NCBI GenBank assembly: GCA_947500445.1 | Contig: CANMSB010000001.1 | Location: 1 to 64,000 of the forward strand | DNA length: 64,000 nt | Origin: an uncultured Flavobacteriaceae bacterium | Lineage (GTDB): Bacteria; Bacteroidota; Bacteroidia; Flavobacteriales; Flavobacteriaceae | Direction of reading: 5' to 3' | In this document: in pieces, positions 39,662 through 63,433 of the stretch | Numbering within the stretch: position 1 is the first letter of the stretch | Layout of the letters: every line of letters starts with the position of its first letter | Notes under the pieces: model-generated | Database searches by the model: none | Seen by the model: only the letters and a program-made list of their open reading frames with translations | What the model was told of the DNA's origin: nothing | Program-made: the position numbers and the translations under genes

Positions 39662-40242
39662 CCTGTTTTATGCATTAGCAAATCTACCACGGCCCGAAAC
39701 TGGTTCAAAACCGGGCGTTTCACTATGTTTTCGAGTTTAACCGTACGTGGCTACCCACAAACTCGGAGAACATCCGGATTTGGTTCATTTTCGGATTTCA
39801 TGACGAAGTGCTAAGACATAAACCGGATTCAGACGCTTTCGCTCCCATACCATTCCGGTAAAAACACCTTAAAATAAACGCTGTTATCGCTTCGAAAACG
39901 GAAGTTTATTACATCCTCTTTAAACATTGTATTTTTTGAGGGATATGTGTGGTTGGAGTGTACCGTCCGTCCTTGATGCCTTTATCGATAGGGTACGATT
40001 TCTTCCAAAGTTCCGATACAGGCCGTTCCTAGCTATCTTGTCCACAACATACGGTGCATTTCGTTTTTCACACGCTATCATTGCCGATATCATCGTATGG
40101 TATCGGTATTTTATGATTTTCGGAGCACGGGATGGTAAATGAGCCTAGATTTACTGCAAATCAGCAAAGCCTCCGGATGCCCTTCCCCTAATTTTGTTGT
40201 TAAATGTAGTAGGGTACTGCGTATCATCTAAACAACAATAAC
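39662..40242. other. 581-bp region without a recognised gene
   Basis: A frame at 39927-40142 has no protein features. Two weak stems follow the lipoprotein gene: gcccg/cgggc around 39694-39715, and cgagttt/aaactcg around 39730-39763. Either could form its 3' end. A -7 box for the next gene is at 40189. Nothing else seen. Confidence 0.45.
40189..40196 (+). promoter_or_regulatory. Candidate -7 box of the DJ-1/PfpI gene
   Basis: TAATTTTG matches TAnnTTTG and lies 47 nt before the ATG at 40243. No good TTG -33 element precedes it at the usual spacing. Confidence 0.35.
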
Positions 40243-40806
40243 ATGAAACTAAAAGGAAAAAAAGTAGCCATTTTGGCAACGGACGGTTTTGAAAAATCAG
40301 AATTGTTCGAACCGCTAAACGCTTTGAACCGGGAAGGCGCTTCGGTACAATTGATTTCGGTCAAGGAGGGATTGATCAAAAGTTGGGACGGTAACAATTG
40401 GGGTGAACGTATTCAAGTAGATGCGTTGGTGCGGGAATCGCGCGAATCGGACTATGATGCCTTGGTACTGCCTGGAGGGGTCGCCAACCCGGACCTGCTT
40501 CGCACCCATTCCGATGCGCTGCAGTTTATTCGCGATTTCTTTAAGAGCGGAAAACCTGTTGCGGCCATTTGCCATGCCCCATGGTTGTTGATCAGCGCCA
40601 ACGTCATCGAAAACCGCAAGGTAACTTCTTACCATAGCATTAAGGACGATGTGGTCAATGCCGGTGCAAGGTGGGTCGACCAAGAGGTAGTGGTAGACAA
40701 TGGTTTGGTAACCAGTAGAAATCCGGACGATTTGCCCGCTTTTATCGATAAACTAGTAGAAGAGATTTGGGAAGGCAAACATTCGGAACAAGTTGTGGAC
40801 GCGTAA
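40243..40806 (+). CDS. DJ-1/PfpI family protein (type 1 glutamine amidotransferase-like)
   Basis: 187 residues, the usual length of PfpI/YhbO proteins. Motifs: KKVAILATDGFEKSELFEPL with the conserved Glu, DALVLPGGVANPDLLR, and the nucleophile elbow PVAAICHAPWLL (Cys about 110, followed by His). The third catalytic residue would lie in VTSYHSIKDD. Family members act as deglycases, chaperones or proteases in carbonyl and oxidative stress; the exact activity is disputed. Cytoplasmic. The next gene lies 86 bp downstream, with a palindromic repeat between. Confidence 0.92.
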   Translation: MKLKGKKVAILATDGFEKSELFEPLNALNREGASVQLISVKEGLIKSWDGNNWGERIQVDALVRESRESDYDALVLPGGVANPDLLRTHSDALQFIRDFFKSGKPVAAICHAPWLLISANVIENRKVTSYHSIKDDVVNAGARWVDQEVVVDNGLVTSRNPDDLPAFIDKLVEEIWEGKHSEQVVDA

Positions 40807-45921: not shown

Positions 45922-46093
45922 ATGTTTTGTTTTTAGGTTATACATTAATTTCTGATACAAAGATGTTCTATTTCAATGGCTTAGTTTAGTTCGTATGTGC
46001 TTAATGTTGACCCATTTGCCATAAAAGTGCCCACCTGGGCCTTATGTTTCCGTTATTTGTATGATGGCGGTCCGAATACCGCAATCTTGTATC

Positions 46094-46142: not shown

Positions 46143-47189
46143 ATGGCCAATTTGATATCGGTTAAGGATTTGGATGTTCACGATTTGGTTAGGGGCCTGG
46201 CCGACGTGCTGGGATCCTCTTGTGATGAGGATAATAATGAGATCTGTTTTAACATATTACCGGAAAAGGGCAAAGGATATGTGAAAGGCGTCCGTTTTTC
46301 GAATGGAATGAGCACTTTGGATATAGATTTACAATTAAAGGAACCTCTTTCGTTAAAAATGAGTCTGTCCACGATACAGCCCCTACGTATTCTTTTCAAC
46401 AGGGAGGCTACCTTGGGAATCCGGTTCATGGATAAGGAGGACGCATATGAAGTGCGACGGTTGGAAAGTGCCTTTGTATCGGGAAACTCGCGGCAACATG
46501 TAATTTTGGAGTTGCCTGCCGAATTACCGATCTGTTTTTTTAGTCTGGAAATCAATAGAAAGTTATTCGAGGTCAAAATCGACGATTTTTTAACGGCAAT
46601 GAACGTAGAGTTGGAGCAATTGTTCCGCGATGTGAACGGAATCAACTCGTTTTTTTATAAGGGACACTACAGTTTGGATATTGCAAAGGCCATTGAAGAA
46701 TCCCTGGAGTGCGAACTGTTAGGTTTCACCCGTTCCGTTTTTATGGAGGGTAAGGCCTATGAAATACTGGCACATCAGTTGCGTTTGTATCTTGATGATC
46801 TTTCGGGTCCCGAAAAAAGAAAGATTTTACGCCAGTCGACCGTAGAACTTATCGAGTCGGCAGCCGGAATTATAAAGTCGGAACTCGAAAATCTGGAGAA
46901 CATCATTTCGCTGGCCAATCGGGTAGGCCTCAACCAAAATACCTTGCAAAGCGGTTTCAAGCATTTGTACGGCATGTCGGTAAACAAATACATCCGACAG
47001 GCCAAAATTGAAAAAGCGCGGGAGCTGATCGAAACTACCGATCTTAATGTTACCGAGATTACCTATAAAATCGGTATCAATTCCCGAAGTTACTTCTCCA
47101 AATTGTTTAAGGAACGCTATTTCATGAGCCCGAGAGAATATATGGCCAAGGTTCGCGGTGGCACGTCTTCCGGTACCCAAACGGGCTAA
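46143..47189 (+). CDS. AraC-family regulator, paralog 1 of 3
   Basis: 348 residues. The N-terminal 230 residues are a ligand or partner domain that is not a clear cupin. The C-terminal 100 residues are an AraC HTH: LENIISLANRVGLNQNTLQSGFKHLYGMSVNKYIRQAKIEKARELI, then LNVTEITYKIGINSRSYFSKLFKERYFMSPREY. The same layout and the RSYF(S/C)K(I/L)F signature occur in the genes at 47319 and 49296, so the three arose by duplication and diverged strongly. No signal or membrane segment. The target is unknown. Confidence 0.88.
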   Translation: MANLISVKDLDVHDLVRGLADVLGSSCDEDNNEICFNILPEKGKGYVKGVRFSNGMSTLDIDLQLKEPLSLKMSLSTIQPLRILFNREATLGIRFMDKEDAYEVRRLESAFVSGNSRQHVILELPAELPICFFSLEINRKLFEVKIDDFLTAMNVELEQLFRDVNGINSFFYKGHYSLDIAKAIEESLECELLGFTRSVFMEGKAYEILAHQLRLYLDDLSGPEKRKILRQSTVELIESAAGIIKSELENLENIISLANRVGLNQNTLQSGFKHLYGMSVNKYIRQAKIEKARELIETTDLNVTEITYKIGINSRSYFSKLFKERYFMSPREYMAKVRGGTSSGTQTG

Positions 47190-47318
47190 ACTTTCCTTTG
47201 TTCCATAGGGGACCTATTATCGATTAACATTTTTTTTAGTTACCAAATTAGGGCATATGTGTTAATAACGGTTTCGATTTTGTTAATCTGAAAAAGGCTT
47301 ATCCAAGTTCTTTGTACT

Positions 47319-48368
47319 ATGAAATCAAAGACGGAGGAACGACAACAAATCGTTATAAGAAGTATAAAGAATGAAGTTATTTTAGAACAGTTGAACGACT
47401 GTTTGGAGGGAACGATCGCAAAGCAGTGGGGCGAACATACCTTGACCTTCGATAATACCAAAGGGCTAGGAACCATTAGAAGTATGGATTTCGACTGGGG
47501 AGTTTCCTTGTTGGATTGTGATTTGGAGCTGACCCATGCTACCGAAATCATCTTTCGTACCTCACAGGTATCCCCGGTCGAATTTATTTTTATATCGGAA
47601 GGTTCCTTAAAATATCAGGAAAGCGGTAAAGATTCTATGGATTTGGAGTGTTTTCAGAATATTATTATTTCCCCCAAGCGAGCGGCGAGACAAACTTTTG
47701 TCTTTCCGCCCGCTACCCGTCTTAAGGTAAACGTAATCCGGATCAAGAAAAAGGAATTCTTAAAAAAGAAAAATAACAATGTAACGTATTTGAACGATCT
47801 GCTTTTCTCCGTATTCAACGATGAGAATTCCGACTTGCCCTATGCACATAGCGGAAGTTATAGTTTAAGGATTGCCGATCAGGTGAAATCACTTGACAAA
47901 GCCTATGATAGTGGTATGATCCGTACCTTAAGTTTGGAAGGTCGGCTTTATTTGATTTTGGCGCTACAACTACTGGAGCATCACGAATATGAAGATAAGG
48001 AGGCGCTGCCCGATTCGCTGTCCAAATCCGATATTCAAAAGATACACAAGCTCATCACCTATATATTGGACCACATTTCGGAACCTTTGACCATAAAATT
48101 GCTATCCAAGGAATCTACTCTGAGCGCCAAAAAACTACAATTGGGCTTTCGGTTGTTGTATTCCAAGTCGGTCAATGAATATGTACGGCAGCTCAAATTG
48201 GAGATTGCCCGCGACCTACTGAAAAACTCGGAGCAATCGGTATCGGAAATTGTATACCATATCGGTATCCGCAGTCGCAGTTACTTTTCCAAAATATTTT
48301 ATGAGGAATATGGAGTGCTCCCTACCGAATATCGAAAACGGTTGCATCTGCCCGGGGGAAAGGTTTAA
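47319..48368 (+). CDS. AraC-family regulator, paralog 2 of 3
   Basis: 349 residues. The N-terminal domain contains VEFIFISEGSLKYQESG and IIISPKRAARQTFVFPPATRLKVNVIRIKKKEF, in a place corresponding to the sensor domain of the neighbours. The C-terminal HTH is LTIKLLSKESTLSAKKLQLGFRLLYSKSVNEYVRQLKLEIARDLL, then QSVSEIVYHIGIRSRSYFSKIFYEEYGVLPTEYRKR. It starts 129 bp after paralog 1. Its stop overlaps that of the convergent SRAP gene by 4 bp, so the two transcripts run into each other. Confidence 0.88.
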   Translation: MKSKTEERQQIVIRSIKNEVILEQLNDCLEGTIAKQWGEHTLTFDNTKGLGTIRSMDFDWGVSLLDCDLELTHATEIIFRTSQVSPVEFIFISEGSLKYQESGKDSMDLECFQNIIISPKRAARQTFVFPPATRLKVNVIRIKKKEFLKKKNNNVTYLNDLLFSVFNDENSDLPYAHSGSYSLRIADQVKSLDKAYDSGMIRTLSLEGRLYLILALQLLEHHEYEDKEALPDSLSKSDIQKIHKLITYILDHISEPLTIKLLSKESTLSAKKLQLGFRLLYSKSVNEYVRQLKLEIARDLLKNSEQSVSEIVYHIGIRSRSYFSKIFYEEYGVLPTEYRKRLHLPGGKV

Positions 48369-49069
48369 ATGTCCTTCGGAATATCCGGATAGTCAACGGG
48401 GTTCAACATACTATCATAAGAAATGTTGTTTTTGAAAAAATCCCGGGCTACGGGGTTGGCCTTTAACCCAATGGATTCGGAGGAACCGTTAATTTTTCGT
48501 AAACCCTCAAGGTCAATATCATTTTCAAGCCACAATTGTTTGTAATTGTCCGGGATAACAATGGGCATAGTGTTTCCAAGGTTTTGAAACTGCTTTACAT
48601 AGGTATTTACAGAACCGGTTAGTAATGAGCAGGATAGAAACCCATCGTTAAGGGTATTGTATATTCCTGCGATGTGAAAAGGTCTGCTATCGGAAAACCC
48701 TACATAATAGGGAAAAACGACCCCATTTTGCAGATAATTGGTAAAAAAACCGGTAACAATGATCAGACACCTACGTTGCTTAAAAGCAGTACTGTACCAC
48801 GATTCGTCCTCCAAAAATTTTTCATCGATGTTCAGGGTGTTCGTTACCTCTTGAAAGGATAGCCAATCGTCTTCAAAATTATCTGGAAGTATGCCCCAAA
48901 TGGCCAACGAAACGATATCGGGACGCCGGTTCGTAAGTATCGGTAGCGTTGCTTCGTGAAGCCCGTTGATCACAATTTCGGGGCGATAAAGATTAGGATA
49001 TTTAAAGGATACCTCAAATTGTTTCTCTATCCGTTCCCGTTTTGCGGTATTTGAAAGTTTATAATACAT
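48365..49069 (-). CDS. SRAP (HMCES/YedK) family protein lacking the catalytic cysteine
   Basis: The family fold is evident: INGLHEATLPILTNRRPDIVSLAIWGILPDNF, TNTLNIDEKFLED, QRRCLIIVTGFFTNYLQNG, FHIAGIYNTLNDGFLSCSLLTG, GNTMPIVIP and a C-terminal VARDFFKNN. Normal SRAP proteins need Cys2, which becomes the N-terminus and crosslinks to abasic sites. At ATG 49069 codon 2 is TAT (MYYKLSNTAK). The Glu of the GxxEW motif is Thr (GFFTNY, about 110) and the active-site His is Gln (KQFQN, about 161); only the Asn of TNTLN remains. Starting at ATG 49105 would not restore Cys2. It probably binds DNA without covalent chemistry, or is decaying. Confidence 0.85.
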   Translation of the reverse strand: MYYKLSNTAKRERIEKQFEVSFKYPNLYRPEIVINGLHEATLPILTNRRPDIVSLAIWGILPDNFEDDWLSFQEVTNTLNIDEKFLEDESWYSTAFKQRRCLIIVTGFFTNYLQNGVVFPYYVGFSDSRPFHIAGIYNTLNDGFLSCSLLTGSVNTYVKQFQNLGNTMPIVIPDNYKQLWLENDIDLEGLRKINGSSESIGLKANPVARDFFKNNISYDSMLNPVDYPDIPKDI

Positions 49070-49215
49070 ATACGGTGCAAGTAACGAAAAACCGATAGGG
49101 GTCATTGTTTCGTTTGAGATAAAATGTAACTCTTTAAAAATTAATTGTTTAACCTTAACATTATATTGGGAGTCTTAATCCCGATATCGTTAAACAAATC
49201 TCCTATATCGGTAAT

Positions 49216-49295: not shown

Positions 49296-50330
49296 ATGAA
49301 CACAAGAAAACAAAGAACATTAGAAGAACTACAATGGTTGCAACAGTGGCTGCCGGGTGATATCACCTATCAAAACGGTATTCAGGTACTACGGGTGAAA
49401 GAAAATTTGGGTGAAGGAGAAGTACGTTGTGTTTGTTTTGATGAGGGTTTGATGGCCATGGAATTCGATATCGTGTTAAATGAGAACCGCGACATTAAAA
49501 TGGATCGATCGGTAGGCGGCCTAATTTATTTTTTATATTGTTTTACAGGGAACTGCTTTCACAAATTCGAGGGAATCGAACGGCTTTCCAAGTTAGAAGA
49601 ATTGCAAACGGCGGTGGTCTCCAATATGCAGGAGACCGCAAGTACCTTGCGGATCGTTAAGGGAGAACGACTGGTTTTGAATTTGATTCAACTGAACAAG
49701 GACATGTACCAACAAAATTTTGATTCCAAGGATGATCGTTCCTATGGAAAAACGATTGCCATGCTGGACACCTTCGACGAAAACCCCGGTTTCTTTCAAT
49801 TAGGGCGTATCAATTTAGAAATAGCGGAGCTGATCAAACTTTTGGAAAATGCAAAATATGTCAATGAACTATCGACATTGATGCAGTTCGAGGGCATTTG
49901 CCATTTGATTTTAGCGAAACAGATCGAACAGTTCAATATCGATTTATTGTATGGGAGCGAACCGACCAGTGGTCTATCAAAAAACTCCTTAAAAATGATA
50001 ACGGAAATCGGAGATTTCGTAAAGAACTATCCGGAAATACAACATTCGGTAGATAGCCTGTGCAGAAAGTCCGGACTGTCCGCCGCCAAAATGCAAAAGG
50101 GGTTCAAATACATCTATCATATGACCGTTGGCGAATTTATTCGCGACTGTAGGTTGGTCAAGGGAGAGCATTTGATCCGTACCACGGACATGAACGTATC
50201 CGAAGTGGTATATGCAATCGGATTTACCAGCAGGAGTTACTTCTGTAAAATTTTTAAGGCGAAGTACCGTTGCAGTCCTAAAGCATACAAGAACATGGTT
50301 TTTAACGAAAGATATTCCGTAAAAGCATAA
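49296..50330 (+). CDS. AraC-family regulator, paralog 3 of 3
   Basis: 344 residues. Same plan as the genes at 46143 and 47319: an N-terminal domain with VGGLIYFLYCFTGNCFHKFEGIERL and LRIVKGERLVLNLIQLNKDMYQQNF, and a C-terminal HTH with SVDSLCRKSGLSAAKMQKGFKYIYHMTVGEFIRDCRLVKGEHLI and MNVSEVVYAIGFTSRSYFCKIFKAKYRCSPKAY. It is followed, after the repeat at 50337-50402, by the BLUF gene on the same strand, so a light-related role is possible but unproven. Confidence 0.88.
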   Translation: MNTRKQRTLEELQWLQQWLPGDITYQNGIQVLRVKENLGEGEVRCVCFDEGLMAMEFDIVLNENRDIKMDRSVGGLIYFLYCFTGNCFHKFEGIERLSKLEELQTAVVSNMQETASTLRIVKGERLVLNLIQLNKDMYQQNFDSKDDRSYGKTIAMLDTFDENPGFFQLGRINLEIAELIKLLENAKYVNELSTLMQFEGICHLILAKQIEQFNIDLLYGSEPTSGLSKNSLKMITEIGDFVKNYPEIQHSVDSLCRKSGLSAAKMQKGFKYIYHMTVGEFIRDCRLVKGEHLIRTTDMNVSEVVYAIGFTSRSYFCKIFKAKYRCSPKAYKNMVFNERYSVKA

Positions 50331-50402: not shown

Positions 50403-50665
50403 ATTAATATCTTTCGAAACATATAAGGGTTTTGCCTATTTATGAAGCGTGTTATTCTTTTTTTGTAAGAGCTCAAGGAGGTTAACAAGCGATCGTTTTT
50501 TATCGCTCCGGCGTATGGCTTTTTATCAAAAACGAAAGCTGTGCGTACTAGGGATACCAAAGCTTCAAAATCGAACGGATATATGGTTTATGGTCCGGAC
50601 CGAAAATGGCGACCCTGGCCGGTCTATAGTTCCGGTATGAGTTTTTGATAATTATAAAGCGTTTT
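50403..50665. other. Leader region of the BLUF gene
   Basis: 263 bp between the leader repeat and the BLUF start. A frame at 50449-50640 has no recognisable features. No obvious -7 box. Nothing else seen. Confidence 0.4.
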
Positions 50666-51091
50666 ATGCATTCTATTATTTATACGTCCCGAGCATTGGA
50701 TTCTTTCGATTCGATTCAGGTGTATCAGATGTTGGAGGGGTCAAGGAGTTACAATGCGGAACATGGGATTACCGGATGTTTGTTGTACCATGAAAGGCAG
50801 TTCGTTCAAATACTGGAGGGCGATTACCAAGTGGTGGACGGGCTGTTCCAAAAAATACGTCATGATCAGCGCCATGCCGAAGTGTCCTTGCTAATGGAGG
50901 ACAATACCGATCAGCGACTTTTCGATAATTGGAATATGGGGTTCTACGAGTTTATTTCCAAAGAGGAACGGCAACTTTTTAGAAAACACCAGTTCAACCA
51001 GTTTTTTGAAAATTCAAACCTTTTTAGTCAATCCAGCAAAACCGGTCTCCTTTTCTTCAAAAGAGTACGGGATCTATTGGAATCGAACTAG
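50666..51091 (+). CDS. Single-domain BLUF blue-light receptor
   Basis: I start at ATG 50666 (MHSIIYTSRA); the frame also offers TTG at 50645. 141 residues. A BLUF domain with the full flavin photocycle set: Tyr6, Asn30 and Gln48, whose spacing (24 and 18) equals that of Y21/N45/Q63 in AppA. Trp89 and Met91 (NWNMGF) likewise fit W104/M106. FAD binding and a blue-light-driven hydrogen-bond switch are therefore expected. The last 45 residues are a helical tail with no effector domain, so it must act through a partner. AraC paralog 3 lies upstream on the same strand. Confidence 0.93.
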   Translation: MHSIIYTSRALDSFDSIQVYQMLEGSRSYNAEHGITGCLLYHERQFVQILEGDYQVVDGLFQKIRHDQRHAEVSLLMEDNTDQRLFDNWNMGFYEFISKEERQLFRKHQFNQFFENSNLFSQSSKTGLLFFKRVRDLLESN

Positions 51092-58292: not shown

Positions 58293-58742
58293 TTAACTTA
58301 TGGTCTCCAGATTGTTCAGTACGGCCAATTCCTTTTGTATGGTATCCCTATGTCTGGTCAGTACCTCCAAAGTGGTCGGGGGCAAAGCTGTTTCGGATAA
58401 TACCTCATTATATTCTTGTATTGCCGCTTTTTCGCCTCGAATAACCTCTTCCAACATAGCCTCGTCCGTATCGGATGCAAAAAACGCTTTCATATCGATC
58501 CAGGTACGATGTGCTTTTGCGGTAAGGCTGTCACCCTTTTCCACATCTTCCCCATAGCCTTTGATCTCTGCTTTTAACTGGTGGCCAAAATTATAGCGTT
58601 CGGCCGATTTGCTTTCAAAAAAAGTCTTTAATTTCGTATTCTCTACCTTTTCGGAAGCTTGTTTAAAACCCTTTTCCGCGTCATAGGTTTTCTCCAATAG
58701 GTCGTTTAATTTACTTGAAATACTATTCGTATCCGTGCTCAT
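58293..58742 (-). CDS. PA2169/DUF2383 family four-helix-bundle protein
   Basis: 149 residues, all helical. The ferritin-like DUF2383 pattern is visible: LNDLLEKTYDAEKGFKQASEKVENTKLKTFFESKSAERYNFGHQLKAEI, then WIDMKAFFASDTDEAMLEEVIRGEKAAIQEYNEVL and LEVLTRHRDTIQKELAVLNNL. Conserved Glu/His positions are compatible with a metal site, but none is proven. Homologs are general stress proteins of unknown activity. Monocistronic with its own terminator. Confidence 0.88.
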   Translation of the reverse strand: MSTDTNSISSKLNDLLEKTYDAEKGFKQASEKVENTKLKTFFESKSAERYNFGHQLKAEIKGYGEDVEKGDSLTAKAHRTWIDMKAFFASDTDEAMLEEVIRGEKAAIQEYNEVLSETALPPTTLEVLTRHRDTIQKELAVLNNLETIS

Positions 58743-59096: not shown

Positions 59097-59311
59097 GGTA
59101 TGCCTGTTTTGCCTTACAAAAATACTTTTCGTCACTGCTTAGGTTTAGTGCAATTGCGATTATCATTGACTCGATTCCCTAAGTGTTGCCCTACAAATGG
59201 GATATGCGCTAATTTTTAGCGGAAACGAGTTCGGGTAACTCCATGGCATTGAAGACTTTTGAAAATGTCGGAAGCAAGAGGTCCGACACAACGAATTTTA
59301 AAAACAACAAA

Positions 59312-59527: not shown

Positions 59528-59881
59528 TTATACCGCCAAGTCGTCCATTACAGAAACTTCTTCCTTGTTGTTGGTCGTCTTGGACCATATAGCGATACCA
59601 AAAGTGAGCACTCCCAACCTTCCTATGAACATCAGGCAGATGAGTGTCGCTTTTCCCGTAATGGACAGGGCGTCGGTAATTCCCGTACTAAGGCCTACCG
59701 TTCCCAACGCCGATGCTACTTCAAAAAGAGGCGCCTCCGGGCTAAGGGCATTGCTACAAGAAAGAAGAAAAAAACCAAAAAGGGAATATCCGAAAAAGTC
59801 GAACAACAGGTTCCGTTGTGGGTTCATCCCAATTTTAAAACGCCGGCAACGCGAATTCGGTTGTTTCACAGATGCGGTCAC
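59528..59881 (-). pseudogene. Truncated TrkH/KtrB potassium transporter (C-terminal fragment)
   Basis: 117 residues that match only the end of a TrkH/KtrB subunit: a helix (LFDFFGYSLFGFFLLSC), the fourth pore loop with its filter (FEVASALGTVGLSTGITDAL) and the last helix (GKATLICLMFIGRLGVLTFGIAIW). Full-length proteins have some 450-600 residues and four pore loops; the first three are missing. The frame opens with GTG overlapping the MscS stop (GTGA), with ATG 59827 as an alternative start. A deletion or recombination that joined the tail to MscS is the simplest explanation. A potassium channel cannot be formed from it alone. Confidence 0.78.
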
Positions 59882-60768
59882 TTCTTCGTTTTTGTTGGTA
59901 GCATGTTTGTCAATTCCTTGGGAAGGTCCAAAGTGCGTATCGGGAAAGGAATATTAATGTTATTTTGATCAAAGGCGGCCTTAATGGTAATCATGGCCTT
60001 CGTTTTCGCCTTTGCTACCTCCAATGCAGAAGTGGAATCGATCCAAAAACGGGTTTCAAAGTTTATGGAACTGTCCCCGAATTCCTTATAAAGGAATATA
60101 ACGTCCTCTTTATCCGCTACGGCCTGAAAGGCTTTGGAGATGGTGGTTACCACCAAATCGCGAACTGCCTTTAAATCGGAATCGTAGGCTACCCCGCATT
60201 CTAAAATAACACGGGATTGCGCCGTAGTAGAATAGTTCTTGATCGGATTTTCCACCACGAGCTTGTTGGGAATATAGACCAAATTGTTATCCGGTTGCTT
60301 TAGGGTGACCGATCGTAGATCAAGATCTACCACCTCTCCCTCAAAACCGTTGGTTTCTATCCAATCGCCAAATTTTAGGTGTTTGATATAGGCCAGTACG
60401 ATTCCGGAATAGGTGTTCGCCAGGGCACCTTGTAAAGCCAGACCTACGGCCAGACCTACGACCCCGGCACCCGCCAAAATGGTGTTCAATGCTTTTCCAA
60501 GATTTAAAATTCCCAGTACCATAAAAAGCCCCAATAACACCGTAATGATGGCCACGACCTTGGAAATCAGATTTTTCATGGACTCCTGCAAACTGCTCCT
60601 ATCCATCAACCGTAATGCCAAACGGCTGATGTAACGGGAGAGAATAAGTGTTACGGTAAAAACCAAGGTGGCAATGATCAAATTGGGTATGTTCAAGATC
60701 AAGGCGTCTAACCACGATTGCAGCTTGCCCATCATTTTGTTCCAAGCATCCGAAAATTGTGTTTCCAT
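59878..60768 (-). CDS. MscS-type mechanosensitive channel
   Basis: 296 residues. Three transmembrane helices (about 27-46, 67-88, 93-125). The pore helix is GAGVVGLAVGLALQGALANTYSGIVLAYIKHLKFGDWIE, with the Gly/Ala pattern typical of TM3. The beta domain follows (GEVVDLDLRSVTLKQPDNNLVYIPNKLVVENPIKNYS), then the alpha/beta domain. It releases solutes during hypo-osmotic shock at the inner membrane. Length matches E. coli MscS (286). The TrkH tail overlaps its stop codon. Confidence 0.94.
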   Translation of the reverse strand: METQFSDAWNKMMGKLQSWLDALILNIPNLIIATLVFTVTLILSRYISRLALRLMDRSSLQESMKNLISKVVAIITVLLGLFMVLGILNLGKALNTILAGAGVVGLAVGLALQGALANTYSGIVLAYIKHLKFGDWIETNGFEGEVVDLDLRSVTLKQPDNNLVYIPNKLVVENPIKNYSTTAQSRVILECGVAYDSDLKAVRDLVVTTISKAFQAVADKEDVIFLYKEFGDSSINFETRFWIDSTSALEVAKAKTKAMITIKAAFDQNNINIPFPIRTLDLPKELTNMLPTKTKK

Positions 60769-60981: not shown

Positions 60982-62076
60982 CTATAGCTTTCCCATAAAA
61001 GAGGGGCTATACTGTTCCAACATATCCAGTACAACTGTTTCTGTTTGCGATAATTCCGGAGCGGGTTCCGGATCGGAAGCGACCTTTTTAAAATAGGCCT
61101 CCAATTCGCCGGATTCATAAAAACTGGGAGCCAGCGGATGCACATAATATTTTCTACATACGTTTCTGGTGTTGCCGAGCGCCTTTGCCGTTTCGTCGTA
61201 GGCCATAAGCATGTTCTTGTTTTTATCTTTTACGGATTTCATGTCCATAAGACGCTCGAAAAAGATGACGGTCGCAGCCCAGGTCCTAAAGTCCTTTGCG
61301 GTAAAAAGAATACCACTTATCCGATGTATGTATTTGTTTACCATCCCACTGTCGATGGTCTTTTTTTTACCGTCCGTATCATAGAACTTGAACAGTTCCC
61401 AACCGGGCAGTTCTTCGCATCGGTTTATGAGCCGTACCAATTGTTTGTTTTTTACCGTAATACGGTGTTTTTTGCCCCGTTTCCCTACAAATTCGAACCG
61501 TATTTTATCCTGAAGTGCAGTAACATGTTTCGAACGGAGGGTCGAAAGACCATATGTTTTGTTGCGTTTGGCGTACTGTTCATTGCCGACACGGATATGG
61601 GTGTCCTCCATCAACCGTATTACCAGAGCCAATACTTTGGTTTTCGGCCATCCTTTCTGTTCCAGATCCTTCGCGACCCTTCGTCTGATTTTTGGCAATT
61701 GTTGTCCAAATACCGACATTTTGTAAAACTTTGTTTGGTTCCGTACCTGTTTCCATAAGGGATGGTATCGATATTGCTTACGCCTTCGCAAATCTTTGCC
61801 CGTTGCCTGTAGATGAGCATTTTCGAGAGAGGCTATTTTTACCTCTTCCCATGCGGGAGGTATTACCAATTGTTCTATGCGCTGCAAACGATTTCCTTCT
61901 TGGATTTGCTGTCCATTAAGAAGGTATTGAAATTGCTCGTTCTGTTTGATGCGTTCAATAGTAAGTTGATCGCTATTTACATAGATCAGGTCCAATTTTT
62001 CAATAGCGGTTTCCGGCGTTTGTAGCATCGCTTTTAAAAAAGAATGGTCTTTGCCCGTTTTTTTCATTAATTCCAT
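60982..62076 (-). CDS. DNA topoisomerase IB (poxvirus-like)
   Basis: 364 residues; Met4 (62067) is a possible alternative start. Domains: an N-terminal beta domain (IYVNSDQLTIERI, VIPPAWEEVKIASLENAHLQATGKDLRRRKQYRYH) and the catalytic domain. Active-site residues: Arg in DTHIRVGNEQYAKRNKTYGLSTL, Lys on the beta-hairpin VGKRGKKHRITVKNKQ, Arg in AKDFRTWAATV and the nucleophile Tyr in NVCRKYYVHP (second Tyr). It relaxes supercoils through a 3'-phosphotyrosyl intermediate without ATP. Length is usual for the bacterial class. No operon partner: 213 bp follow before MscS. Confidence 0.95.
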   Translation of the reverse strand: MELMKKTGKDHSFLKAMLQTPETAIEKLDLIYVNSDQLTIERIKQNEQFQYLLNGQQIQEGNRLQRIEQLVIPPAWEEVKIASLENAHLQATGKDLRRRKQYRYHPLWKQVRNQTKFYKMSVFGQQLPKIRRRVAKDLEQKGWPKTKVLALVIRLMEDTHIRVGNEQYAKRNKTYGLSTLRSKHVTALQDKIRFEFVGKRGKKHRITVKNKQLVRLINRCEELPGWELFKFYDTDGKKKTIDSGMVNKYIHRISGILFTAKDFRTWAATVIFFERLMDMKSVKDKNKNMLMAYDETAKALGNTRNVCRKYYVHPLAPSFYESGELEAYFKKVASDPEPAPELSQTETVVLDMLEQYSPSFMGKL

Positions 62077-62719
62077 GCTAGTGTAACTATGGCGCTTATG
62101 GCATTCGTTTTCTCGTTGCGAAGTTGTGGTGGGCGTTGGCTGTTTTTCCCAGCCTTAACCCTCCGTTTCGGTCCAAAACTATCAAGAGTAAGGTACGACA
62201 AAAGAAGGCAAAATTGGTACAAGTCTCCGTTTATGACAATACCTTTTTGAGTATTATACAGTTGCTTCTAAAGCCGTTTTCCGTTGTGCAGCGCCATAAA
62301 CCCGACACTATTGAAAATGGTTCTGACCTGATGGGGCAGAACCATTTTAACAACCAACCAACTAAAATCACTTATATGCCTGGATTTATTGCCATAAATC
62401 CTTAAGTGTTTCTCAAAGATATCGTGTAGCATCTGCAAAAATGTGCTGTAAAAAAAGTTTGATTGACTGTTTTAAAAAAGCCTTTTTGGTTTTGTGCCGA
62501 AATCTTTCAGGATAGCTTCCCTAACGCCCTATTTCCATAAGGGTTAACGTCATGCCGGTCTCCTCCACTACAAAACGATGGCGTTTTACAAATCTTTGGG
62601 GTAGGTTGGAAACGGCCGATGTTGGAATTGGAGCGATTTCCGAATAGGGACAACATCTACGGTGTTTGAGGTCGCAGGATCGACCAGGGTTTAGGATATT
62701 TGATAAAATCTTTTTTTAC
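62077..62719. other. 643-bp region between divergent genes, without a recognised gene
   Basis: It must carry promoters for topoisomerase IB (minus) and the flavodoxin-like gene (plus). A frame at 62124-62405 ends in MPGFIAINP and shows no domain features. The only strong structure is the perfect 12-bp inverted repeat at 62314-62348. Confidence 0.45.
62314..62348. repeat. Perfect 12-bp inverted repeat
   Basis: aaaatggttctg (62314-62325) and cagaaccatttt (62337-62348) are exact reverse complements around an 11-nt loop. Without a following T run it is not a classic terminator. Its outer aaaatggt/accatttt recalls the palindromic repeats A-C, but the rest differs. Confidence 0.7.
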
Positions 62720-63433
62720 ATGAAAACACCCCCTGATTTTTCCGATATTAATGCACTATTCATCAATTGTACGCTTAAAAAATCACCGGAGCAGAGCCAT
62801 ACCGAAGGGTTGATGAACGTAGCAATGGACATCATGCGCGCAGAAGGAGCGGGGGTAACGTACATCCGTTTGGCAGATTTCGATATTCCTGTTGGCTTGG
62901 CGCCGGACATGCGGGATCAAGGGGCATCAAAAGACGATTGGCCCGAGGTTTTCGATAAAATCCTTCAAGCCGATATCGTAGTGATCGGCACGCCCATTTG
63001 GTTAGGCGAAAAGTCTTCTATAGCCACAAAACTTATAGAACGGATGTATGGTATGAGCGCCCGAACGAACGACAAAGGACAGTACATCTATTACGGGAAG
63101 ACCGGGGGCTGCGTCATTACCGGTAACGAGGACGGCGTCAAGCATTGTGCCATGGGTATCCTTTACGGGCTACAACATCTCGGTTTTTCCATACCCCCCC
63201 AAGCCGATTGTGGCTGGATTGGTGAAGCCGGCCCCGGTCCCAGTTATTTGGACAAGGAGTCCGGAGCAAAGCGCAATGCCTTCACCAATAGAAATACCAC
63301 GTTCATGACCTATAACTTGCTGCACATGGCAAAAATGCTAAAGGCCGTCGGTGGTTATCCCGCTTATGGCAACTCCAGAGAGGATTGGGACGACGGAACC
63401 CGTTGGAATTTTGAAAATCCGGAGTATCGTTAA
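62720..63433 (+). CDS. NAD(P)H-dependent FMN reductase / flavodoxin-like protein
   Basis: I start at ATG 62720 (MKTPPDFSDINALFINCTLKKSP); the frame from 62666 adds an unlikely tail. 237 residues. Flavodoxin-like fold: strand 1 ALFINCTLKKSPEQSHTEGL (phosphate loop), then ADIVVIGTPIWLGEKSSIATKLIERMYGMS, the flavin-facing loop of the NAD(P)H:FMN reductase class, and GGCVITGNEDGVKHCAMGILYGLQHLGF. It probably reduces quinones, FMN or xenobiotics in the cytoplasm. The DUF2254 gene starts 10 bp downstream, so the two are likely one operon. Confidence 0.88.
   Translation: MKTPPDFSDINALFINCTLKKSPEQSHTEGLMNVAMDIMRAEGAGVTYIRLADFDIPVGLAPDMRDQGASKDDWPEVFDKILQADIVVIGTPIWLGEKSSIATKLIERMYGMSARTNDKGQYIYYGKTGGCVITGNEDGVKHCAMGILYGLQHLGFSIPPQADCGWIGEAGPGPSYLDKESGAKRNAFTNRNTTFMTYNLLHMAKMLKAVGGYPAYGNSREDWDDGTRWNFENPEYR

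Follow-up and report, generated by a model that had tools for sequence, protein, structure and literature searches.

A Selected Clade of SRAP-Fold Pseudoenzymes in Flavobacteriaceae That Appears to Belong to an AraC-Run Stress-Response Gene Set

The closest described relatives of the protein studied here are the SRAP (DUF159) proteins, such as YedK of E. coli, human HMCES, and YoqW of B. subtilis, which have the same fold (PDB 2f20, HMCES, YedK). In the relevant part of Aravind et al. 2013 (PMC3765255), Cys2 is called absolutely conserved in the SRAP superfamily, two conserved arginines (R86 and R180 of 1zn6) are predicted as DNA contacts, and known SRAP genes are placed in SOS operons. For YedK, the relevant part of PMC9436759 gives Cys2 and Glu105 as essential, the H160Q variant as about ten-fold slower, and Asn75 as mattering little for an internal abasic site. 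A fold kept after the loss of catalysis is also found in the trypanosome prozyme, a dead regulatory paralogue that, as the relevant part of PMC5201418 describes, activates its active paralogue. Neither a Cys-less SRAP clade nor an AraC regulon like the one described below was found reported among titles and abstract openings, a source in which subscription journals are mostly uncovered.

The window, i.e., the whole stretch of 64,000 nucleotides analyzed, encodes an SRAP-fold pseudoenzyme that we call dSRAP. The Pfam SRAP profile PF02586 matched it at 1e-20 (74.7 bits against a curated cut-off of 27.1), and its catalytic columns were assigned by alignment with 7, later 46, canonical SRAPs. The earlier note had claimed that Cys2, the catalytic Glu, and the catalytic His are replaced by Tyr, Thr, and Gln, respectively, while one Asn is kept. 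The alignment confirmed this, as Tyr2, Thr110, and Gln162 occupy the respective columns and Asn80 (NTLN) corresponds to the Asn of the canonical NARSE motif. Neither of two trivial explanations, an upstream start or a sequencing error hiding a Cys, held. The upstream in-frame ATG at 49105, which is located further upstream than the predicted -7 box, would prepend the Cys-free extension MTPIGFSLLAPY, and no choice of start gives a Cys. A sequencing error is unlikely because the relatives share the non-Cys state: among 111 distinct dSRAPs, residue 2 is Tyr in 47, Phe in 37, Lys in 6, Cys in 5, Ile in 5, Asn in 5, Leu in 4, Ser in 1, and Thr in 1.

Table 1. Features of the dSRAP locus and of the surrounding stress island in the window (scores of operator-like sites in bits).
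Feature	Position	Strand	Details and basis
Operator-like site	40138..40199	+	25.0; 44 bp before DJ-1/PfpI gene (40243-40806)
Operator-like site	45955..46016	-	26.7; training site; non-SRAP matrix
AraC-type regulator	46143..47189	+	ORF, Pfam, A4 profile
Operator-like site	47256..47317	+	19.4; just before AraC gene at 47319; non-SRAP matrix
AraC-type regulator	47319..48368	+	convergent with dSRAP, ends overlap 4 bp; ORF, Pfam, A4 profile
dSRAP gene, SRAP-fold pseudoenzyme	48365..49069	-	234 aa, MYYKLSNTA...; ORF opens at 49069 (ATG TAT TAT...), stop at 48365; ORF, Pfam, alignment, AF2 model
Codon 167, Thr	48569..48571	-	Arg (RMP motif) in 46/46 canonical SRAPs compared; alignment
Codon 162, Gln	48584..48586	-	column of catalytic His (YedK His160); alignment
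Codon 110, Thr	48740..48742	-	column of catalytic Glu (YedK Glu105); alignment
Codon 2, TAT (Tyr)	49064..49066	-	catalytic Cys in canonical SRAPs; translation, alignment
Conserved dSRAP promoter (predicted)	49074..49135	-	half-site 1 AGAGTTAC 49126-49133; half-site 2 CGAAACAA 49105-49112; 21 bp apart; -7-like box TTACTTGC 49077-49084
AraC-type regulator (HTH_18)	49296..50330	+	divergent from dSRAP; ORF, Pfam, A4 profile
BLUF blue-light sensor domain protein	50645..51091	+	beside AraC genes
Operator-like site	59114..59175	-	26.2; at start of small ORF ahead of DUF2383/PA2169-type gene (58293-58742)
Operator-like site	59203..59264	+	22.6; no clear downstream gene
MscS channel gene of stress island	59878..60768	-
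Weak operator-like site	62411..62472	-	12.3; 335 bp upstream of topoisomerase IB ORF (60982-62076, -)
Weak operator-like site	62644..62705	+	13.0; at FMN-reductase-like gene (62666-63433, start codon uncertain)

The AlphaFold2 model of the window protein, built from 50 sequences, reached a pLDDT of 91.5 and a pTM of 0.91. All 21 PDB chains matching this model at E ≤ 1e-3 were SRAPs (best 2f20, TM 0.82), which bears out the claim of a fold conserved without its known chemistry. Together with the Pfam match and the Asn, the WGxxP core is what dSRAP shares with the described family.

The residues of the chemistry are mostly gone from the whole group. Cys2 is present in 5 of the 111 dSRAPs versus 44 of 46 canonical SRAPs, the catalytic Glu (column 110) in none versus all 46, the catalytic His (column 162) in 24 versus all 46, and Asn80, the equivalent of YedK Asn75, in 80 versus all 46. 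The triad of Cys2, Glu110, and His162 occurs together in 0/111 dSRAPs and in 44/46 canonical proteins. It should be noted that fragments of L081, L088, L093, and L210 (5 and 6 pieces) were left out of the alignments with 7 and 46 canonical SRAPs, respectively, that the separate degenerate SRAP L205 was excluded from the canonical counts, and that L214 and L218, whose starts look misplaced, were retained and are the two canonical proteins lacking Cys2. As peptide patterns had been used in the scan of named genomes, the counts were repeated for the 51 dSRAPs found otherwise, which gave Cys2 in 3, Glu110 in none, and His162 in 12.

Meanwhile, dSRAPs have gained near-invariant residues, namely Asn7, Glu39, Trp69, Gln73, Pro130, and Asp142-Gly143-Phe144, with hydrophobic swaps also at positions 34, 57, 61, and 140. 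Glu39, Trp69, Gln73, Asp142, and Gly143 are invariant in 111/111 proteins, and these five and Phe144 in 51/51 of the dSRAPs not picked by pattern; position 39 is His in 39 of the 46 canonical proteins. Overall charge does not separate the two groups (median pI 5.4 versus 5.7). Thus, unlike the described SRAPs, dSRAPs have lost Glu always, Arg167 nearly always, and Cys2 and His mostly, and carry new invariant residues. The Tyr2/Thr/Gln subgroup that the earlier note had asked about was borne out in part: there is a conserved clade, mostly without Cys2 and wholly without the Glu, but the strict combination is not what is conserved, as residue 2 and the residue in the His column are variable. Judging from these alignments, the abasic-site chemistry has very probably been lost, although some dSRAPs might retain weak chemistry, since 24 of 111 keep the His and 5 keep Cys2. 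The five Cys2 proteins without Glu (L054, L055, L056, L125, and L133; MCYKISNTA or MCYRISNTA) are possible natural slow crosslinkers.

For the distribution of dSRAP, several searches were combined. With the window protein as a query, at least 193 of 397 genomes of the family gave some SRAP match, and among the matches listed, full-length ones at 35–54% identity stood apart from canonical ones at 23–32%. A dSRAP profile (A1) scored dSRAPs at ≥207 bits and other SRAPs at ≤144, and when 158 proteins were compared later, the gap lay between 207.5 and 177.0 bits. Its matches above 200 bits were confined to the window's own family in overlapping samples of 395 genomes of the phylum and 246 of the order. 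A single-protein scan of genome contigs gave 59 stretches, none of which was confirmed. A scan of named genomes with a 13-sequence alignment gave 90 relatives, and 79 of the best 80, which were kept, are placed by NCBI in Flavobacteriaceae, in genera including Arenibacter, Aquimarina, Maribacter, Zeaxanthinibacter, Gelidibacter, Kordia, and Winogradskyella. The lone outlier, L149, comes from a 10-kb contig of a metagenome-assembled genome labelled Algicola sp. (Pseudoalteromonadaceae) and may reflect gene transfer, faulty binning, or an incorrect label. The locus sets overlap in genomes, and identical proteins were merged.

A tree of 51 dSRAPs and 47 other SRAPs was computed with 14 active-site columns masked, using a short "quick" search with SH-aLRT as support. 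In it, the dSRAPs group as a single clade with an SH-aLRT of 100, which lies within the flavobacterial SRAPs. The nearest canonical branch, with a support of 83 that is not strong, is the flavobacterial SRAP L087 (genome G310, MCFHLSNT...), which shares LSNT near the N-terminus with dSRAP but, unlike it, keeps Cys2, Glu, His, and Arg. Three of the five Cys2 dSRAPs were in the tree, where they form a supported subclade, and all five share the clade motifs; the simplest reading would be that the Glu was lost once and that the Cys returned or remained in this subclade. L205 (genome G610, another family of the phylum; MSDR, GFYKWK, no His) lies outside the dSRAP clade and looks like an independent loss. 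In five of ten close dSRAP pairs, with dS of 0.5–1.7, dN/dS was 0.20, 0.11, 0.12, 0.10, and 0.15; the other five pairs were saturated and their dS was not computable. These substitution ratios indicate purifying selection on the gene, and the rapid decay in relatives that the earlier note had named as a possible refutation was not seen.

The source genome has three SRAPs. One of them is the second, normal SRAP that had been proposed to be looked for: it lies on contig C43 and is canonical (MCNSTS...GFFEPH...VHNKKKRMP). The other, L083 (C3:156257-156913), is a second degenerate, Cys-less dSRAP paralogue (MLQNLSC, GFYTSY, STQIPVIV) on a long branch of the tree. Its upstream region has no clear operator (4.2 bits with the dSRAP matrix described below), and it may therefore be regulated otherwise. 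Beside L083, an AraC-type HTH is fused with a BLUF domain (L003:2226-3494, minus strand, contig C3; BLUF 5e-26, HTH_18 3e-20). According to our reading of the tables, dSRAP is the sole SRAP found in 17 of 47 dSRAP genomes; the other 30 also have another SRAP locus scoring ≥115 bits with the Pfam profile, the active sites of some of these having been inspected. A dependence on another SRAP was therefore rejected, and in those 17 genomes no other SRAP was found with which dSRAP could pair in the manner of prozyme.

The neighbourhood sets dSRAP apart from the SOS-operon SRAPs of the literature. Its stress island contains genes for DUF2383, Dps, MscS, topoisomerase IB, YtxH, and aldehyde dehydrogenase. 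When 53 dSRAP loci, including two with split copies, were compared with 46 loci of other SRAPs, an AraC gene was adjacent in 29 versus 1 and within five genes in 46 versus 2, which bears out the supposed link with the flanking AraC regulators; the remaining 7 dSRAP loci have no AraC gene at this distance. Within five genes there were also DUF2383 (32 versus 0), MscS (23 versus 2), and topoisomerase IB (13 versus 0). With 60 HTH_18 matches over its 5.2 Mb, the source genome has too few for this proximity to be due to chance. The AraC N-terminal type described by a profile (A4) was present in 48/48 dSRAP genomes versus 73/349 others (Fisher 6e-29, at most 7 candidates per genome scored), where the profile was built from dSRAP loci, relatedness inflates the p-value, and the co-occurrence is confounded by shared ancestry. 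The genome of L088 (G132), a broken dSRAP remnant, is outside the 121 found with this AraC type. BLUF, found within five genes in 2/53 dSRAP loci, was rejected as a general partner.

Conserved elements were found upstream of dSRAP. The heptamer TACTTGC occurs in 31 of 109 distinct upstream regions, in 30 of them no more than 30 bases from the start. Exactly 50 bases upstream of it, a hand count gave TG in 26/30 and TGnGTTA in 18/30 regions, the window having AGAGTTA. The dSRAP matrix, which was grown from these elements, scored above the 99% null level in 79 of the 109 regions, 75 of the 109 having trained it, and the other 30 fell below the motif threshold. A spacing of 21 bp between half-sites is the usual geometry of the AraC family, and other regulator families bind similar repeats. 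In the window, 7 bases separate the end of the -7-like box from the MYYK start codon (49067-49084), so that the dSRAP mRNA would be nearly leaderless.

Scanning of 133 dSRAP loci with this matrix gave 239 sites above 13 bits, a count that contains duplicate loci. They lie at dSRAP (94), DUF2383 (21), aldehyde dehydrogenase (12), YtxH (11), AraC (6), MscS (4), and Dps (3) genes, at other named families (10), at unnamed ORFs (37), and where no gene was called (41). In the controls, 48 other loci contained 2 sites, and a shuffled sixth of the loci reached a maximum of 9.8. As a dSRAP-type site with at most 3 mismatches occurs once in the source genome, a generic matrix was needed. For this, 164 non-SRAP sites served to build a second matrix (consensus aTTGcGTTAA...GCaTTtGaGtcAA-N20-TAncTTTG), which was scanned over 464 kb, about 9% of the source genome. 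Above 10 bits there were 16 sites versus 0.33 expected; 15 of them lie in C1:40138-87122, and the remaining one is weak and lies elsewhere. The dSRAP promoter, absent from the training set, scored 24.0 bits. Other sites in the source genome include ones that precede an AraC gene, genes for DJ-1/PfpI, Dps, and aldehyde dehydrogenase, and the small ORF in front of DUF2383. The sites of this C1 stretch form a dense AraC-like operator cluster at stress genes that spans 40138-62705 in the window and C1:65374-87122.

This cluster has the appearance of a general stress regulon island and is also present in genomes without dSRAP. As an out-of-sample test, 15 islands around well-scoring AraC genes of the type described by the A4 profile were taken from 15 of the 73 genomes with this type that lack dSRAP. 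All 15 contained operator sites, 50 in total, and no SRAP was found in these island stretches. By a hand tally, genes for DUF2383, Dps, hemerythrin, YtxH, aldehyde dehydrogenase, or MscS account for 25 of the sites and other ORFs for 8, and the remaining 17 lie where no gene was called. Because this island and its operator are also present where dSRAP is absent, dSRAP is not needed for the regulation and is best seen as one of the outputs of the regulon. From the position of the sites and the 21-bp geometry of the repeats, we infer that the island AraC protein and this operator are a pair.

We conclude that dSRAP is most likely a non-catalytic, stress-induced binding protein and a regulon output. 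The full reading, in which a clade of SRAP-fold pseudoenzymes is one output of an AraC-controlled stress regulon and works by non-covalent binding of a partner, we consider fairly probable. It draws on comparisons of sequences, which show lost chemistry residues, a single clade, selection, an AraC-linked island, and a shared operator. The clade would have arisen once from a catalytic flavobacterial SRAP. The island AraC protein would bind both half-sites and, under stress, activate transcription from the adjacent -7 box. The dSRAP produced would then bind a protein, a small molecule, or a nucleic acid non-covalently through a remodelled surface marked by Asn7, Glu39, Trp69, Gln73, and Asp142-Gly143-Phe144.

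Could this partner be DNA? A dSRAP with a remaining non-covalent affinity for damaged or single-stranded DNA, serving as a shield or sensor at the time of stress, would be consistent with the retained SRAP fold and WGxxP core, with Asn80 in most dSRAPs, with Lys or Arg at position 4 in 102/111, and with the operator sites at Dps and the neighbouring topoisomerase IB. The presumed contact arginines, R86 and R180 of 1zn6, were mapped by motif to positions 82 and 167. Arg was left there in 5 and 4 of the 111 dSRAPs, respectively, versus 30 and 46 of the 46 canonical proteins; for Lys or Arg, the counts are 13 and 11 versus 41 and 46. The basic KKKR loop is gone as well, with a mean of 0.43 Lys/Arg at positions 163–168 compared with 3.13 in canonical SRAPs. 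The proposal of the earlier note that dSRAP is a DNA-binding protein thus lacks support from the residues. Since the presumed DNA contacts are mostly lost, non-covalent binding of another partner would be favoured, and we regard DNA binding as unlikely, though worth keeping in mind.

It is less probable still that dSRAP is a co-regulator that binds and tunes the neighbouring AraC proteins as a feedback arm. Among 40 adjacent AraC–dSRAP pairs, the AraC gene is divergent and upstream in 15 and convergent and downstream in 21, and dSRAP was never found without the A4 type of AraC N-terminus. Against a co-regulator stand the 73 genomes in which this AraC type occurs without dSRAP, and the operator sites in all sampled islands without dSRAP.

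A new chemistry, in which Lys4, the N-terminal amine, or the conserved Cys101 reacts with a different substrate, seems very doubtful. Position 4 is basic in nearly all dSRAPs, as already mentioned, and Cys101 is present in 107/111; however, Cys101 is not a new feature because it is equally conserved in canonical SRAPs (93%), and the Glu, the general base, is gone from every dSRAP. According to the rules of methionine aminopeptidase, a large residue 2 blocks the removal of Met. Such a residue is present in 104 of the 111 dSRAPs, so Met is probably kept there, which would also hide the alpha-amine that canonical SRAPs use. The ordinary decay of a dying duplicate, to which a few broken or fragmentary copies (L081, L088, and L093) might point, can be dismissed almost entirely, since selection excludes it for the clade, and it is also at odds with the single ancestry, with new residues that are invariant across 111 distinct proteins, with the conservation of the promoter, and with the genomes in which dSRAP is the sole SRAP found.

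As for the preferred reading of dSRAP as a binding protein in a stress regulon, its most novel form is one to which we give an even chance. Namely, an SRAP lineage would have lost the chemistry that defines its family and been taken over as an effector by a general, AraC-controlled stress regulon of Flavobacteriaceae that is apparently undescribed, with an operator of roughly TGnGTTAA-N13-TGAGTCAA-N20-TAnnTTTG and a new ligand site around Glu39, Trp69, Gln73, and Asp-Gly-Phe. A selected clade mostly without Cys2 and wholly without the catalytic Glu separates the SRAP fold from its chemistry, and dSRAPs are a natural set of variants for asking what else this fold can do. For a large group of marine bacteria, the operator and the AraC type offer a stress regulon that can be tested. 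Across marine flavobacteria, dSRAP is kept under selection and appears to have joined a stress-response gene set run by AraC regulators.
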